Positions 2,471 through 16,323 of a stretch of 32,153 nucleotides of DNA are shown piece after piece. The notes beneath the pieces were generated by a model that had not been told where the DNA came from, ran no database searches, and worked only from the letters and a program-made list of their open reading frames with translations. The DNA comes from Dermatophilaceae bacterium. Lineage in GTDB: Bacteria > Actinomycetota > Actinomycetes > Actinomycetales > Dermatophilaceae. The position numbers and the translations under genes were made by a program. The stretch lies in contig JACMPC010000265.1 in NCBI GenBank assembly GCA_014377705.1, positions 1 through 32,153 of the forward strand, in the 5' to 3' direction. Each line of letters opens with the position of its first letter. The first letter of the stretch is position 1.

Positions 2471-2914
2471 CTACTGGGCGACCTGGGAGATCTCGTAGGG
2501 CACCGGCTGCTGGGACAGGTGCGGGTGCACATCGCCGGCGTAGACCTTCAGCTTGGTGAGCTGCTGGCGGGCCAGGGTGCCCTTGGGAAGCATGCCGCGA
2601 ACGGCCTTCTCAACAGCCTTCGCCGGGTTCTTGGCGAGCAGCTCCTGGTAGGACGTCGCCTTGAGGCCGCCCGGGAAACCCGAGTGGTGGTAGGCCTTCT
2701 TCTGCACCAGCTTGCTGCCGGTCAGGGCAACCTTGTCGGCGTTGATGATGATGACGAAGTCACCACCGTCGACATGCGGCGCGAAGGTCGGCTTGTGCTT
2801 GCCCCGCAGGAGGATCGCAGTCTGGCTGGCCAACCGGCCGAGGACGACGTCAGTGGCGTCGATGACGAGCCACTTGCGCTCGACCTCGCCGGGCTTGGGG
2901 GTGTACGTACGCAC
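2471..2914 (-). CDS. rplM: 50S ribosomal protein L13
   Basis: L13 is an early-assembly protein of the large subunit. The 147-residue product matches the family length. It has the motif [16 protein letters not shown] near the start and the signature [10 protein letters not shown] in the C-terminal third. The start is GTG at 2914 (peptide [10 protein letters not shown]), with GAGG about ten bases upstream. It is the first gene of the rplM-rpsI-glmM unit. Upstream lies a divergent regulator gene (start 3178), so its own promoter must lie in the 263-base gap. Confidence 0.98.
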
Positions 2915-3053
2915 GGATTAAGCCTCGTTCTCTCGTGACTGTGTAACTGGCGGTAACGTTGCAGAAATAGCGGTGGTGAGACTGCAATGGTGCGGTCCCC
3001 GGTGAGATCGAGGCGCACGGCCTCTCTGGCCGCAGTACGCACAACGACATCTA

Positions 3054-3083
3054 ACGATACCGGGGCCTCAGCGCAGCGCATAA
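3054..3083 (-). promoter_or_regulatory. Candidate rplM promoter
   Basis: On the minus strand a TTATGC (-35; plus 3078-3083) and a TATCGT (-10; plus 3054-3059) are separated by 18 bases. Transcription would start near 3047, giving a leader of about 130 bases before rplM. The match to the housekeeping consensus is modest, so this is only a candidate. Confidence 0.35.
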
Positions 3084-3177
3084 TCCGGCTGAACCGGCTG
3101 GATTGAGCACGGACCCGGCCCCATGGTCACCTTCAGGGCACTTGTGCAAACGAAGTGTGCATGATTACTGTGCGTAC

Positions 3178-3780
3178 ATGAGCGCGCTCCCGCCACACAA
3201 CACCCCCCAGGTTCCCGCCGTCCGCCTGAACCGCGCGGCCCTGACCATGCTCGCCCATCCGTTGCGGTCCCGTCTGCTGGACGAGCTGCGCCGCAGGGGC
3301 CCCGCCACGGCAACGACCCTGGCGGCGGTGCTGCACACCAACAGCGGAGCCACCAGCTCCCACCTGCGCAAGCTGGCGCAGGTGGCTCTGGTGGTGGACT
3401 CCGGTCAGGGCGGTGGCCGCAGGAGGCTCTGGAGCGCCAGCACCGAGTCGCGACCTCGCGACGACGGACCTGGTGACGAGGACGACGAGGACGACGCTCG
3501 TGCCGCACTGGCCTGGCTGGCCCGCGACTACCTGAGTCTCTTCAACGACCGGGCCGGGCAGTGGCTCGACACCCAGGACCGGTGGCCTCCGCAGTGGCGC
3601 GAACAGGTCGGCCTCTCGGACCACCTGGTCCAGGTCACCTCAGGACAGCTGTCGGCCCTGCGCGCCGACCTCGAAGCGGTCCTGGAACGCTACCGCCGGG
3701 TCGGCGCAGGCAATCCCGACGCCAAACGAGTCTCGGTCTATCTCTGCCCCCTGCCGGTCGACAGCCCCCGCGGGGACTGA
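3178..3780 (+). CDS. ArsR-like winged-helix transcriptional regulator
   Basis: This is a 200-residue DNA-binding protein with one HTH_20/ArsR-type winged helix at about residues 15-80. The motif begins RLNRAALTMLAHPLRSRLLD, followed by the recognition region SGATSSHLRKLAQ. An acidic linker (GDEDDEDDARAA) follows, and then a helical C-terminal region with Trp-rich segments that may bind a ligand or mediate dimerisation. No Cys pair typical of metal sensors is visible. I chose the ATG at 3178. A frame open from 3103 adds 25 residues with no family look. TTGTGC (3142-3147) and TTACTG (3166-3171) lie 18 bases apart just before this ATG, which would fit a leaderless transcript. It diverges from rplM and converges on the amylopullulanase gene. 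Its target is unknown. Confidence 0.8.
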   Translation: MSALPPHNTPQVPAVRLNRAALTMLAHPLRSRLLDELRRRGPATATTLAAVLHTNSGATSSHLRKLAQVALVVDSGQGGGRRRLWSASTESRPRDDGPGDEDDEDDARAALAWLARDYLSLFNDRAGQWLDTQDRWPPQWREQVGLSDHLVQVTSGQLSALRADLEAVLERYRRVGAGNPDAKRVSVYLCPLPVDSPRGD

Positions 3781-3797
3781 CCCACCCGCGGGGACCG
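3766..3797. terminator. GC-rich inverted and direct repeats between convergent genes
   Basis: The palindrome CCCCGCGGGG (3766-3775) lies at the end of the regulator gene. CCCGCGGGGAC recurs at 3785-3795, just before the stop of the opposing amylopullulanase gene. These can fold into strong stems without a U-tract, which suits a bidirectional stop for two convergent genes. Function is inferred from position. Confidence 0.35.
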
Positions 3798-3818
3798 ATC
3801 GATCGCTGACGCCTCGGA

Positions 3819-11128: not shown

Positions 11129-12835
11129 TCAGCGACGGCGCCGGACCCGCCCCTCGTCCCACACCGGTTCGTCGGACAGATAGACCGAGCCGTTCTGGCC
11201 GAAGACCAGGAAGCGGTCGAACCCCTTGGCGAACCATCGGTCATGGGTCACCGCCACGACGGTGCCGTCGAAGGCCTCAAGCCCCTCCTCCAGAGCCTCG
11301 GCCGACTGCAGGTCCAGGTTGTCGGTGGGCTCGTCGAGCAGCAGCAGGGTGGCTCCGCTGAGCTCGAGCAGCAGGATCTGGAAGCGCGCCTGTTGCCCTC
11401 CGGACAGGGAGTCGAAGGTCTGCTCCGAGGCACAGGCGAGCTCGTAGCGGTCCAGCGCCTTGGCTGCCTCCTCGCGCGGCCGCCCGCGGCGATGGTCGTC
11501 CCCCCGGTGCAGGATCTCCAACAAGGTACGTCCCAGCAGGGCGGGGTGCTGATGGGTCTGTGCGAACCATCCCGGTCGCACCCGCGAGCCCAGGCGGACG
11601 ACCCCGGAGTGCCGTACCGCGACCGGCTGCACATCGCCGACCGGCTCATGCTCCGGTGCCGGATCGGTGCCGCCGGCCGCCAGCAGCCTCAGGAAGTGGG
11701 ACTTGCCTGATCCGTTGCCACCGAGGACGGCAAGCCGCTCGCCGTACCAGATCTCCAGGTCGAAAGGCTCCATCCCTGCCCAGGCGGGCGGCGACCCCTG
11801 ACCGAGCAGCTCGAGACCCTCGGCGATCACCGCCCGCTTGGCCGTCCGCCCTCCCTTGAGCCTCATCTTCACGTTCTGCTCCTGGGGGACCAGCTCGGGC
11901 GGCCCGGCTCCCTCGAACTTGGCCAGCCGGGTCTTTGCCGCCTGGTACCGGCTGGCCAGCCCGTCGTTGTAGGCCGCCTTGTTCTTGTACATGAGCACCA
12001 GTGCCACCAGTTTGGCGTGCTCCTCGTCCCAACGGCGGCGCAGCTCCTCCAGCCTGCTGTTCCGGTCGATCCGCGCCTGGTGGTATGTCGAGAAACGGCC
12101 GGGGTGCACCCACAGGGACGACCCTGCCGTGGCCGGCTCGAGGGTGGCGATCCGGGTGGCGACCCGGTCGAGCAGCTCCCGGTCATGGCTGATGAACAGC
12201 ACCGTCTTGGCAGAGGCGATGATCTGCTCCTCCAGCCAGCGCTTGGCCGGCACGTCCAGGTAGTTGTCGGGCTCGTCCAGCAGCAGCACCTCCTCGGGCC
12301 CGCGCAGCAGGGCCTCGAGCACCAGCCGCTTCTGCTCTCCCCCGGACAGCGTGCTCACCGAGCGCCACTGCGCCTGCTCGAACGGTATGCCGATCGCCGC
12401 CACCGTGCAGACGTCCCAGAGGGTCTCGTGCTCGTAGCCTCCCGCGTCCGCCCAGTCGACCAGGGACTGCGCATACGCCATCTGGGCTGGCTCGTCGTCG
12501 ATCTCCATCATCGCCGTCTCGGCCACCTCAAGGGCCGCCGCCGCCTCCCGGATGACGGGCGGCGCCACGCCGACCAGCAGGTCTCGCACACTGGAGTCGT
12601 CGCGCAGAGACCCGATGAACTGGCGCATGACGCCCAGCCCGCCACTGCGGGTGACCGCGCCCTCGGCCGCGTTCAGGTCCCCGCTGACGATCCGTGACAA
12701 CGACGTCTTGCCGGTGCCGTTGGGGCCGATAAGGGCGACCTTGGCGCCCTCACCGACCCGGAGGCTGACCCCGTCCAGAAGAGGCCGCCCGTCAGGCAGG
12801 TAGTAGCTGACGCCGTTGATATCAAGGTGACCCAC
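11129..12835 (-). CDS. ABC-F family ATPase (ribosome-associated ABC protein)
   Basis: This soluble protein of about 568 residues has two ATP-binding cassettes in one chain and no membrane segments, the ABC-F layout. The first cassette shows Walker A GPNGTGKTS (about residue 37), signature LSGGEQKR and Walker B LLLDEPDNYLD. The second shows GGNGSGKSH, LSGGQQAR and LLLDEPTDNLD. The linker between them is Arg/Lys-rich and helical, as in members that enter the ribosomal E site to rescue stalled or antibiotic-bound ribosomes. Whether this one gives antibiotic resistance cannot be told. The start is GTG at 12835 (peptide begins MGHLDINGVSYYLPDG); a TTG three codons upstream is also possible and neither has a clear ribosome site. 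It is divergent from the SPFH gene and converges on the antiporter gene, 54 bases away. Confidence 0.93.
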   Translation of the reverse strand: MGHLDINGVSYYLPDGRPLLDGVSLRVGEGAKVALIGPNGTGKTSLSRIVSGDLNAAEGAVTRSGGLGVMRQFIGSLRDDSSVRDLLVGVAPPVIREAAAALEVAETAMMEIDDEPAQMAYAQSLVDWADAGGYEHETLWDVCTVAAIGIPFEQAQWRSVSTLSGGEQKRLVLEALLRGPEEVLLLDEPDNYLDVPAKRWLEEQIIASAKTVLFISHDRELLDRVATRIATLEPATAGSSLWVHPGRFSTYHQARIDRNSRLEELRRRWDEEHAKLVALVLMYKNKAAYNDGLASRYQAAKTRLAKFEGAGPPELVPQEQNVKMRLKGGRTAKRAVIAEGLELLGQGSPPAWAGMEPFDLEIWYGERLAVLGGNGSGKSHFLRLLAAGGTDPAPEHEPVGDVQPVAVRHSGVVRLGSRVRPGWFAQTHQHPALLGRTLLEILHRGDDHRRGRPREEAAKALDRYELACASEQTFDSLSGGQQARFQILLLELSGATLLLLDEPTDNLDLQSAEALEEGLEAFDGTVVAVTHDRWFAKGFDRFLVFGQNGSVYLSDEPVWDEGRVRRRR

Positions 12836-12955
12836 AAGGACCAAACTACGGGGGTGACCGGAGCCACGCTCGCTGACACCATGGGTTCATGGAAGAGTTC
12901 ACGAAGGGCCGCGTCGCAACGGGTGCGCCCACATCTGGCTGAGGAGCACGGCATC

Positions 12956-14116
12956 GTGGGACTGATGGACAAGATCCGCGGCGAGTTCATCGACATCGTC
13001 GAGTGGACCGACGACACCCGGGACACGATCGTGTGGCGCTTCCCGCGGCACGAGAACGAGATCAAGATGACCGCCAAGCTGGTCGTGCGCGAGAGTCAGG
13101 TGGCGGTCTTCGTCAACGAGGGCACGATCGCCGACGTGTTCAAGCCCGGCACCTACACGCTGGAGACCCAGAACCTGCCGGTCCTGTCGACCCTCAAGGG
13201 GTGGAAGTACGGGTTCAACAGCCCGTTCAAGGCCGAGGTCTACTTCGTCAGCACCCGCCAGTTCACAGATCTCAAGTGGGGGACCCAGAACCCCGCCATG
13301 ATGCGGGACCCCGAGTTCGGGATGGTCCGCGTCCGCGCGTTCGGCACCTACTCCATCAAGGCCGCCGATCCCGCCGTGCTGCTGCGCGAGCTGGTCGGCA
13401 CCGATCCTGAGTTCACCACCGACGAGGTCGACGAGTTCGTCCGGCAGTCGGTGGTGTCACGAGTTGTGACCGCCCTCGCCACGTCCGGCGTGGCAGCGCT
13501 CGACCTGGCTGCGCACCAGAACGAGATCTCCACCAGGCTCGCCGGAATCATCAGTGAGGACCTCAACCTCATCGGCCTGCAGATGCCACGCTTCATCATC
13601 GAGAACGTCTCACTGCCGCCCGAGGTCGAGGCGACGATGGACAAGCGGACCTCGATGGGCGTGCTCGGCGACCTGGACCAGTTCACGAAGTACCAGGCCG
13701 CCACTGCCATCACCGACGCCGCGCAGAACCCGGGCGGCATCGCCGGCGCGGGCGTGGGCATCGGTGTCGGCGCTGCCCTCGGCGCGCAGCTGGCCCAGTC
13801 TCTCCAACCCGGCGCAGCCCCGGCGGCCGCCCCGGCTGAGCCTTCCAGACCCGCCGAGCCATCCAGCCGGGACCAGGCACCCACGTCAGCGCCCAACGGA
13901 CCACCACCGCTGCCCGGCAGCACCCAGTGGTACCTCGGCATGGACGGCCAACAGGTGGGCCCGCTTGCTCAGGCTGAGATCCAGGCACTGGTCACCGCAG
14001 GTACAGCGACAACAGACACTCTGGTCTGGCGGGGCGGAATGGTGACCTGGACCCGTCTGGCCGATGTCCCGGAGCTTCAGGATCTCGGCTCCACGCCTCC
14101 CCCGCTGCCATCGTGA
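12956..14116 (+). CDS. SPFH-domain protein with C-terminal GYF_2 domain (YdjI-like)
   Basis: This 386-residue protein opens with MGLMDKIRGEFIDIVEWTDD, the typical beginning of the YdjI branch of the SPFH (stomatin/flotillin-like) family. The SPFH region covers about residues 1-255. It is followed by a Gly/Ala-rich segment, an Ala/Pro linker, and a GYF_2 (DUF4339) module at about 325-374 beginning WYLGMDGQQVGP. There is no signal peptide or clear membrane helix, so a partner must recruit it to the membrane. In Bacillus subtilis YdjI works with the zinc-ribbon membrane protein YdjG and with PspA; the YdjG-like gene is next here. I chose GTG at 12956 because GAGGAG lies ten bases upstream; the frame is open from 12827 but the added peptide is not family-like. 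Confidence 0.9.
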   Translation: MGLMDKIRGEFIDIVEWTDDTRDTIVWRFPRHENEIKMTAKLVVRESQVAVFVNEGTIADVFKPGTYTLETQNLPVLSTLKGWKYGFNSPFKAEVYFVSTRQFTDLKWGTQNPAMMRDPEFGMVRVRAFGTYSIKAADPAVLLRELVGTDPEFTTDEVDEFVRQSVVSRVVTALATSGVAALDLAAHQNEISTRLAGIISEDLNLIGLQMPRFIIENVSLPPEVEATMDKRTSMGVLGDLDQFTKYQAATAITDAAQNPGGIAGAGVGIGVGAALGAQLAQSLQPGAAPAAAPAEPSRPAEPSSRDQAPTSAPNGPPPLPGSTQWYLGMDGQQVGPLAQAEIQALVTAGTATTDTLVWRGGMVTWTRLADVPELQDLGSTPPPLPS

Positions 14117-14814
14117 CCGTCTCCCCAGGACAGCGTGAGCCCATGCCGGGTCATCCTGAGGATCATCAGCCCCAAGAGAATCAGCCCCAGACGAACCAGC
14201 CCCAGAATCACGCTGAGCGGGATGCGACCAGACAGCATCAGTACCAGTGCCCGTCCTGCGGCGCTGCCCTCGAGTTCGCCCCTGGCTCCACCGGGATGGT
14301 CTGCCCGTACTGCCAGGCCAAGCTCGACATCGCCCTGCCGGTGGTGGGCAGCCGCAAGAGCAACTACCTCGCCTACGCGGGGCAGGCGCACACACCTGTG
14401 GGGCAGCTTCCGCCCTTCAGCCTGACCTGCCGCAACTGCGGCAGCGCGCAGGAGCAGGTCGCGATCGCCGGGCGTTGCCTTTCGTGTCGCAGCCCCTTGG
14501 TGGTCAGCAACGACCTCGGCGGCCAGCTGAAGAGTCCCGACGGTGTGGTGCTTTTCACCGTCGAGAAGGCCAAGGCCGCCGCATGCTTCCAGGAGTGGAC
14601 CTCCTCACGGTGGTTCGCACCCTCGGCGCTGAAGAAGGTCAGCAAGACGGCCTCGATGACCGGCAGCTACCTGCCGCACTGGGGCTTCGACGACCACACC
14701 ACCACGGACTACACCGGCCAGCGAGGTGACCACTACTACACCACCGAGACCTACACGACTCAGGAGAACGGGCAGACGGTCACCAACACCCGGCAGGTGC
14801 AGCACACCGCCTGA
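14113..14814 (+). CDS. Double zinc-ribbon protein (YdjG-like), N-terminal part of a gene cut by an in-frame TGA
   Basis: The gene starts at GTG 14113, overlapping the SPFH stop in GTGA, so translation is probably coupled. Residues 1-45 are Gln/Asn/Pro-rich, with a repeat NQPQ at about 19-32. Two zinc ribbons follow: C46, C49, C64, C67 and C106, C109, C122, C125. A region ending NTRQVQHT leads straight to TGA at 14812-14814. The frame continues without shift (SHASGRVSRDF) into the second half. From memory, family members have Arg-Trp at this point, so TGG to TGA is the simplest explanation. As read, the product is 233 residues and lacks the membrane anchor. It may be a true mutation, a strain polymorphism or a sequencing error. 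Confidence 0.85.
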   Translation: MTVSPGQREPMPGHPEDHQPQENQPQTNQPQNHAERDATRQHQYQCPSCGAALEFAPGSTGMVCPYCQAKLDIALPVVGSRKSNYLAYAGQAHTPVGQLPPFSLTCRNCGSAQEQVAIAGRCLSCRSPLVVSNDLGGQLKSPDGVVLFTVEKAKAAACFQEWTSSRWFAPSALKKVSKTASMTGSYLPHWGFDDHTTTDYTGQRGDHYYTTETYTTQENGQTVTNTRQVQHTA

Positions 14815-15309
14815 TCCCATGCCTCGGGACGTGTCTCCCGGGACTTCGCCGACGTGCTGGCCACCGGTGTCAGCACCCCGGATGCTGACCTGCTCAAACA
14901 GCTCGGACCCTGGTCGACCGCCGACGCGGCCGGCTATCAGTCGGAGTACCTGGCCGGCTTCGACTCACCCCGGTACGACGTCGATGCTGACGCGGGCTTC
15001 GCGTCGGCGAGGCAGGTCATGGCCTCCGTCATCCAGGACGACTGCCGCGCCGACATCGGAGGCGACGAGCAACGGGTCGACCATCTGAGCACCACTGACC
15101 ACGACGTCCTGTTCCGGCTGCTTCTGCTGCCTCTGTGGATCGCGACCTATATCGCGGGCGGCAAGACCTTTGACGTCTTCGTGAACGCCAACACCGGCGA
15201 GGTCATCGGTGAACGGCCCTACAGCGCGGTCAAGATCATCGCCGCGGTGATAACGGCGCTCGCGGCCATCACCGTGACCGTTCTTCTCTACAACGCCAAC
15301 GCGAGGTAG
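14815..15309 (+). pseudogene. C-terminal part of the YdjG-like zinc-ribbon protein, beyond the in-frame stop
   Basis: This is the same reading frame as the preceding gene and continues the family sequence. It has the motif GRVSRDFADVLATGV, the GYQSEYLAGFDSPRYDVDAD segment, a central region including DDCRADIGGDEQRVDH, the hydrophobic LLLLPLWIATYIAGGKTFDVF, the conserved NANTGEVIGERPYSAVKI, and a C-terminal membrane helix (about 15228-15290). A GTG at 14854 could in principle start a separate 151-residue protein, but I see no good ribosome site before it. With the stop read through, the whole protein would be 398 residues. Without this part the zinc ribbons lose their membrane attachment. Confidence 0.8.
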
Positions 15310-15364
15310 AAGGGGCCGCCCGCCGGGGTCGCCCGCTAGCCAGCGACCGTGCCCCTGGGTTGGA

Positions 15365-15406
15365 CAAACCTAGGTGCGGTGCGTACTCCCAGGTTTGCGA
15401 CCTGGG
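15365..15406. terminator. Hairpins between the convergent YdjG-like gene and truA
   Basis: CCCAGGT and ACCTGGG (15388-15394, 15400-15406) form a perfect seven-base stem with a five-base loop. The upstream CAAACCT (15365-15371) can instead pair with AGGTTTG (15391-15397), which excludes the first stem. There is no U-tract. The position between two convergent genes suggests a bidirectional terminator; the alternative pairing may be chance. Confidence 0.45.
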
Positions 15407-15420
15407 CAGCCGCGCCATCC

Positions 15421-16323
15421 CTACCCGACCGGTGATCGTCGAACGCGCGACTCCCGGTGCCGCCGGTCCAGGTCCACATCGGGCGGATAGGTCACCTGTT
15501 CCAGGCTCAACCCGTGTGCGGGCATCACGACCACGCCCGGATGACGTCGCCCCGCAACGAGGACCTGGGCGGGCCATCCGGCCGGCTGGCGACCCTCGCC
15601 CACCGGGATCATCACCCCGACCAGCGCCCGGACCATCGACCGGCAGAACGCATCGGCAACGACCCTTGCCTCGACCACCCCGTCCCCGCCGCGCACCCAC
15701 GAGAACTCGAGCAGCGTGCGAATCGTCGTCGCGCCCTCTCGCCGCTTGGCGAAGGCAGCAAAGTCCCTCAGACCCAGCAGGTGATGGGCGGATGCCTGCA
15801 TCGCGGCGACGTCCAGGGGTCGCCGGTGGATCAGAGTATCGCGCCGGCGCAGGGGATCCAGCAGATGCGGCTGGTCGCAGATCCGGTACAGGTAACGGCG
15901 CTCGATCGCCGAGAACCGGGCGTTGAAACCCTCGGGAGCCACCGAGACCCCATGAACCACCATGTCAGCCGGCAACACGCCGTTGAGCCGGGCAAGAGCA
16001 GACTCAGCGGGTGAGCGGGTGGAGCGGCCGGGCACCAGCGCCCAGCCAGCCGGATCCACATCTGCATGAGCCACGGCACCTCGGGCATGGACGCCCGCGT
16101 CGGTTCGTCCAGCGACGACCAGGCGTACCGGCCTGACGGCTCTCAGGATCAGGGTGAGCGCCGCGGACAGCTCGTCTTCGACGGTCCGCTTCCCGGGCTG
16201 CATCGCCCACCCGGAGAACGCCGTCCCGTCGTAACCGAAGTCGAGACGAATTCGCAGAGACGACGCGAGCCCGCCACCCCCCGGAGGGGCAGCGGGCTCG
16301 ATGTCGTTCATAGAGGCAGGCAC
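15421..16323 (-). CDS. truA: tRNA pseudouridine(38-40) synthase TruA
   Basis: TruA converts uridines 38-40 of the tRNA anticodon stem to pseudouridine. The 300-residue protein has the N-terminal motif RLDFGYDGTAFSGWA, the catalytic loop GRTDAGVHA (nucleophile Asp about 75), FNARFSAIERRYLYRI and the C-terminal FCRSMVRALVGVM block. The length is normal for actinobacteria. The start is GTG at 16323 or ATG at 16311; neither has a strong ribosome site, and the choice only changes four residues. It follows rplQ by 31 bases and is probably the last gene of the alpha operon here. Confidence 0.96.
   Translation of the reverse strand: MPASMNDIEPAAPPGGGGLASSLRIRLDFGYDGTAFSGWAMQPGKRTVEDELSAALTLILRAVRPVRLVVAGRTDAGVHARGAVAHADVDPAGWALVPGRSTRSPAESALARLNGVLPADMVVHGVSVAPEGFNARFSAIERRYLYRICDQPHLLDPLRRRDTLIHRRPLDVAAMQASAHHLLGLRDFAAFAKRREGATTIRTLLEFSWVRGGDGVVEARVVADAFCRSMVRALVGVMIPVGEGRQPAGWPAQVLVAGRRHPGVVVMPAHGLSLEQVTYPPDVDLDRRHRESRVRRSPVG

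Follow-up and report, generated by a model that had tools for sequence, protein, structure and literature searches.

In Bacillus subtilis, YdjG and YdjH are described as membrane proteins required for the membrane recruitment of the SPFH protein YdjI and of PspA (PMC8581546), and YdjG itself is described as two zinc ribbons, a YpeB-related domain with an NTF2-like fold, and a membrane segment (PMC11237479). Here, we consider a gene of that general design in a Dermatophilaceae bacterium, lying in a stretch of 32,153 nucleotides (contig JACMPC010000265.1; “the window” below means that whole stretch) and split by a single in-frame TGA. Is the gene freshly broken, is the stop read through, or is a base simply wrong? 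We judge it probable, with real room for doubt, that the stop is genuine and is a very recent nonsense lesion in the YdjG-like partner of the adjacent SPFH protein; we judge so because an intact copy exists in the same genus, because tryptophan stands at the site in all 22 aligned homologues, and because the sequence beyond the stop has not decayed.

The label “YdjG-like,” which came with the original prediction, needs a word of care. It holds as far as architecture and the SPFH neighbor go, both of which match the description of YdjG and YdjI, and it is for these reasons that we keep it. It does not extend to PspA (PF04012), which had no match in the window's genome, although the control search detected it in 9 of 14 genomes, among them that of B. 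subtilis. As an analogy, the term fits, and we use it without any claim of membership in a Psp system.

One Gene, One Stop

On the + strand, the frame from 14113 to 15309 is open throughout save for one TGA, at 14812–14814. What comes before it (14113–14814, ending at the TGA) encodes two zinc ribbons and the first portion of a beta-sheet domain; what comes after it (14815–15309, +, ending in TAG) encodes the remaining sheet and a C-terminal helix and lies beyond normal translation. For comparison, there are three other genomes of the same genus (G001, G002, and G003; the window's own is G000), and G003 is our main reference. There, the whole protein is uninterrupted in a single frame and 76% identical, and the N-terminal and C-terminal halves, taken separately, are 74.8% and 79.9% identical to it. 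Because each half is in its own right homologous to one protein, chance is excluded as the source of the joined frame. That the two halves are one gene, with a double zinc ribbon and a C-terminal helix, was first proposed from the letters alone, and the open frame and the intact G003 copy bear it out.

Matches were found in 9 of 58 searched genomes and in 11 of the 186 genomes of the family (the window's own included in both counts), and among the latter an internal stop occurs only in the window's match. A scan of named genomes gave 13 further loci: three from Dactylosporangium, eight from Paracoccus, and two metagenome-derived ones of other groups. The alignment on which we rely (A2) holds 22 homologues, with G003 in and the window out, and at the position of the TGA, all 22 have tryptophan, just as the original prediction expected. 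Homologues that end naturally at this point had been suggested as a check, and none of the 22 does.

Left out of A2 and of the tryptophan count were the distant matches L019, L020, L021/L037, L022, L023, and L024/L025 (34% identity or less); A2 likewise omits the duplicates (L017, L018, and L027) and the loci of the window itself. When the distant matches were put into a wider alignment, tryptophan stood at the site in L024/L025 (one gene) and not in L019, L020, or L021/L037, and L022 and L023 were not returned. The L024/L025 gene (genome G056, contig C62) is reported with one TAG inside its match, the only match with an internal stop, apart from the window's own, among the 58 genomes.

The stop is not the only oddity at the site. 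The residue preceding the tryptophan is arginine in 16 homologues of A2, asparagine in 3, glutamine in 2, and histidine in 1, and it is alanine (GCC) in the window, which is found in none of the 22; over codons 14809–14817, 5 of the 9 bases are unlike G003. Judged on the sequences compared, then, the stop is one base off a tryptophan codon, yet the site as a whole differs from every relative at more than a single base, and the single G-to-A change first offered as the cause does not explain it.

A Stop Without Decay

Measured against G003, the ratio of nonsynonymous to synonymous substitution rates (dN/dS) is 0.22 before the stop (bootstrap 0.14–0.35; 193 codons, the variable first 40 omitted), 0.265 after it (0.16–0.41; 164 codons), and 0.158 for the SPFH gene (0.11–0.22; 394 codons). 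The amino acid differences between the window and G003 were also polarized with 21 outgroup homologues and, in a repeat, with the 7 nearest. With 21, the window has 11 changes after the stop against 16 for G003 (6 undecided) and, before the stop, 23 against 17 (5 undecided); with 7, the counts for the window and G003 are 10 and 12 after the stop and 21 and 12 before it. Relaxed selection after the stop is thus not indicated by dN/dS or by any excess of window changes there, and by these counts, the window's extra changes would lie, if anything, upstream. The polarized counts and dN/dS together tell us that the downstream part was still under constraint until recently. A downstream part that evolves like translated sequence means, in turn, that the stop is very young, or is not real, or is read through.

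What, then, would have happened? In the account we prefer, the zinc-ribbon gene, which overlaps the adjacent gene for an SPFH/Band-7 protein with a GYF_2 domain and is probably co-translated with it, would have made a product that helps to hold the SPFH protein at the membrane (a role proposed by analogy), and it would have been functional until shortly before the lesion. The lesion would be local, with the preceding codon altered too and the rest of the gene undecayed, and translation would end after residue 233, in mid-strand, with the remainder of the sheet and the anchor lost. Both the loss of function and the correctness of the base calls are things that we infer. Of the options first raised, fresh inactivation and a wrong base are, on these comparisons, the two in the lead.

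What the Stop Would Leave

In the structure model of the G003 protein (mean predicted local distance difference test score, 85.3), the tryptophan is residue 205, within a long strand (192–222), and it is followed by strands at 290–319 and 322–329 and by a helix at 343–368. Because the site falls inside that long strand, the TGA cuts in mid-sheet and not at a domain boundary. The in-frame product of 233 residues keeps both zinc ribbons but has neither the C-terminal helix nor the remainder of the sheet; without these, on the evidence of the model, it is probably unstable or non-functional.

The first zinc ribbon (CPSC...CPYC; 14248–14313, +) is recognized from its sequence and from a Pfam DZR match slightly under the cut-off (E = 1.4e-5; 25.6 bits vs. 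27.3), and the second (CRNC...CLSC; 14428–14487, +) is recognized from its sequence. All eight zinc-ligand cysteines, in four CxxC knuckles, are retained in the window gene, and the cysteine pairs are invariant in A2. On the far side of the stop, there is a PepSY-like stretch (E = 0.0012, under the Pfam cut-off) and a predicted C-terminal hydrophobic helix (15226–15303, +), placed by way of model helix 343–368 and taken to be membrane-spanning from its hydrophobic sequence. The membrane helix of the YdjG-like family is, in other words, encoded in the window but 3' of the TGA and hence outside the translated product.

A structure search with the G003 model gave no match in the PDB at E ≤ 0.001; its top rows were pore-forming beta-barrel proteins (E ~0.01, template-modeling scores <0.2), which we put down to chance resemblance to a long beta hairpin. 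Searching solved structures by profile yielded three matches, all of them weak, with RNA polymerase subunit P/Rpo12 and ribosomal protein eS27 as the targets, and the NCBIfam matches shown were to short zinc-ribbon or unrelated families, none of which passes where cut-offs are given.

Restarting translation past the stop would be another way to save the C-terminal part, and it is unsupported: the ATG at 14819 lies in another frame, and upstream of the GTG at 14854 (the first listed in-frame start) no clear ribosome-binding site is visible to the eye.

Could the Stop Be an Error?

The strongest rival is that the source molecule has a sense codon here and that the stop arose from a local miscall or from the merging of several strains into one consensus. 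We regard this as possible, although we would not choose it first. The genome is a draft in 278 contigs, 96.9% complete; the differences cluster at the stop, with a preceding alanine that no homologue has; and the downstream part bears no trace of relaxed selection. These facts weigh against a real lesion, and they do so in company. The cluster of five differences in nine bases fits a local error as well as it fits a local mutation, and the absence of downstream decay is equally expected if the stop is unreal or is read through. Moreover, G003 has the sole other copy among the four genomes of the genus (with completeness of 87% and 79% in the remaining two). A published survey adds a general caution: in-frame stops in bacteria are described as mostly short-lived, on the scale of population polymorphism, with a substantial fraction of raw cases expected to be artefacts (PMC7918605).

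What keeps us from settling for an error? The 32 other listed genes of the window are open, which is only a rough check because the genes were chosen from open reading frames; at least three clustered wrong bases would, we think, be unusual for random error; and real gene breakage is seen elsewhere in the same genome. On contig C1 (L062, about 2789–3800, +), between rho-like and prfA-like genes (named from their translations), lies a histidine kinase gene with a frame change at about 3118–3154 and an in-frame TGA at 3400–3402, its HisKA domain split across two frames and its HATPase_c domain after the TGA. The homologue in G001 is in one frame over the whole compared part; that in G003 is open through both sites, although its frame shifts earlier, in a stretch that includes undetermined bases. 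The broken kinase tells us that gene loss occurs in this lineage.

We also scanned codon usage around in-frame stops in 26 non-overlapping pieces (485,777 bases, or ~13% of the genome, window included). Among 2140 stops with 50 open codons on either side, this TGA came fifth. Of those ahead of it, three have an ATG at most 8 codons after the stop and resemble normal gene junctions, and in the remaining one (L153, 4064) the first ATG stands some 22 codons on; some lower rows are also without a nearby ATG (e.g., L148, 980). In a previous scan, which covered 36 pieces (169 kb, with possible overlap among them), the TGA had stood third. The scan is a rough tool, since the stop of the broken histidine kinase (L062, 3400) came only 39th.

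Could the Stop Be Read?

One might prefer to imagine that the UGA is decoded, probably as tryptophan by the near-cognate tRNA-Trp, so that a little full-length protein is made and the stop acts as an expression valve. Continuing purifying selection downstream would agree with this, as would the general literature, in which UGA is described as the stop most often read through, with tRNA-Trp able to misread it (PMC5289835), and in which a survey argues that bacterial in-frame stops are common and often under selection (PMC7918605). Most details of this genome point the other way. The base after the stop (+4) is U, and studies in E. coli and yeast are cited for low read-through in that context (PMC5289835). 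UGA is also the main stop codon, ending 25 of the 33 listed window genes and 158 of the 231 long open reading frames with a visible stop in the 26 sampled pieces (486 kb). Release factor 2 is present, as a prfB match over the cut-off at a contig end. The genome has 46 tRNA matches, all covered by ARAGORN, with a single tRNA-Trp (anticodon CCA), and no tRNA with a UCA anticodon is among the 46 (in a genome 96.9% complete, with the tRNA-Sec family outside the search). We reject a change of genetic code, with UGA meaning tryptophan, on the tRNA set, release factor 2, and stop usage.

There is one feature that might seem to favor read-through. The sole tRNA-Trp found in the window's genome (L078, 1500–1573, −, contig C58) has a U27·G43 pair atop its anticodon stem and is identical in G001 and G003; the other 27 of the 30 tRNA-Trp genes read (38 genomes searched) have a Watson–Crick 27–43 pair, that of G002, in the same genus, being C–G. 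The altered pair thus occurs in three of the 30, all from this genus; the tRNA-Trp of the window's genome has neither G24A nor A9C (positions here are in our own numbering). A 2026 paper reports that an overexpressed C27A tRNA-Trp, which unpins the 27–43 pair, lifts UGA read-through ~2.5-fold in E. coli, and that C27U was the sole simulated top-pair variant without increased flexibility and is missing from its natural four-base-pair sets (PMC13092985). G003, furthermore, has the identical tRNA yet keeps an intact tryptophan codon at the site, and a stop appears at the site in no other genome seen. Reading of the UGA, which had been among the first suggestions, therefore finds no good support in tRNA, release factor, stop usage, or context. 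We consider it improbable, and recoding or useful read-through of any kind unlikely. As for the more particular idea that the U·G top pair (in three of the four genus genomes) slightly raises the misreading of UGA as tryptophan and that the UGA, under selection, persists as a valve through which a membrane-stress protein is expressed at a low level, we find it very doubtful indeed.

Last and least credible to us is a functional shortening, in which the cell would retain the N-terminal 233 residues as a soluble zinc-ribbon protein and leave the rest free to decay: the eight zinc-ligand cysteines are all there, but the stop falls inside strand 192–222 of the model and not at a domain boundary, no aligned homologue ends here, and the downstream part is undecayed.

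The Partner Gene and the Surroundings

Immediately upstream lies the gene for the SPFH/Band-7 protein with its C-terminal GYF_2 domain (12827–14116, +; Pfam Band_7_1, E = 4.6e-99; GYF_2, E = 5.4e-16), whose start codon is uncertain, 12905 having been taken for comparisons. The zinc-ribbon gene begins with the GTG at 14113 and overlaps the TGA stop of this neighbor by four base pairs (GTGA). The same stop/start overlap is found in G003, as ATGA, and because it is common to both, we take the start at 14113 to be supported. Of 22 loci, 21 have an SPFH homologue next to the zinc-ribbon gene, and in the remaining one (L014), just 549 upstream bases are in view.

In the window, the pair (12673–15420) is flanked by ABC-F and truA genes. 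On the G003 contig (C67, L059), the transporter, truA, and rplQ were not found and other genes follow the pair, while upstream of it is just a short two-frame stretch matching the start of the ABC-F gene. Because the flanks differ, the surroundings of the pair have been rearranged within the genus.

A search for plasmid DNA gave no match, and a promoter and terminator scan of 12700–15450 gave nothing above shuffled sequence. No paper came up in a literature search on premature stops in metagenome-assembled genomes in connection with pseudogenes and sequencing errors. Elsewhere in the window (3103–3200), G001–G003 share ~10 conserved codons ahead of the likely start (ATG) of an ArsR-like regulator, even though the frame of that stretch holds a stop in all three; the pattern is suggestive of an operator or leader under conservation and not of coding sequence.

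Comparison with Known Systems

On its own, this is an ordinary event of little consequence, a further case of a gene recently broken (or a base miscalled) in draft sequence. It has its uses all the same. The two open reading frames should be annotated as one interrupted gene; the site is suited to testing UGA read-through in this lineage; and the locus shows an SPFH and double zinc-ribbon pair in a genome in which PspA was not detected.

How does it sit beside what has been described? With the in-frame stops under purifying selection in the published survey, it shares a single in-frame stop and a dN/dS well below 1 on both sides, with the difference from the cases presented there that this stop is found in one genome only (PMC7918605). 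With the UGA-reading tRNA-Trp that has a four-base-pair anticodon stem, it shares an altered position 27–43, in three genomes of the genus, but the pair here is U·G, for which that paper's simulation gives no gain in flexibility (PMC13092985). The homologues in Dactylosporangium (L002–L004) and Paracoccus (L005, L006, and L008–L013) are like the window in architecture and in the upstream SPFH gene, and at the site they have tryptophan and no stop; they are 37–47% identical to the G003 protein. With B. subtilis YdjG, encoded in the pspA-ydjGHI operon, the likeness is one of description. The window copy is interrupted, and its SPFH partner has a GYF_2 domain in place of the C-terminal zinc finger described for YdjI, but the two systems share two zinc ribbons, a middle domain, a membrane segment, and an SPFH/Band-7 partner in the same operon (PMC8581546, PMC11237479).
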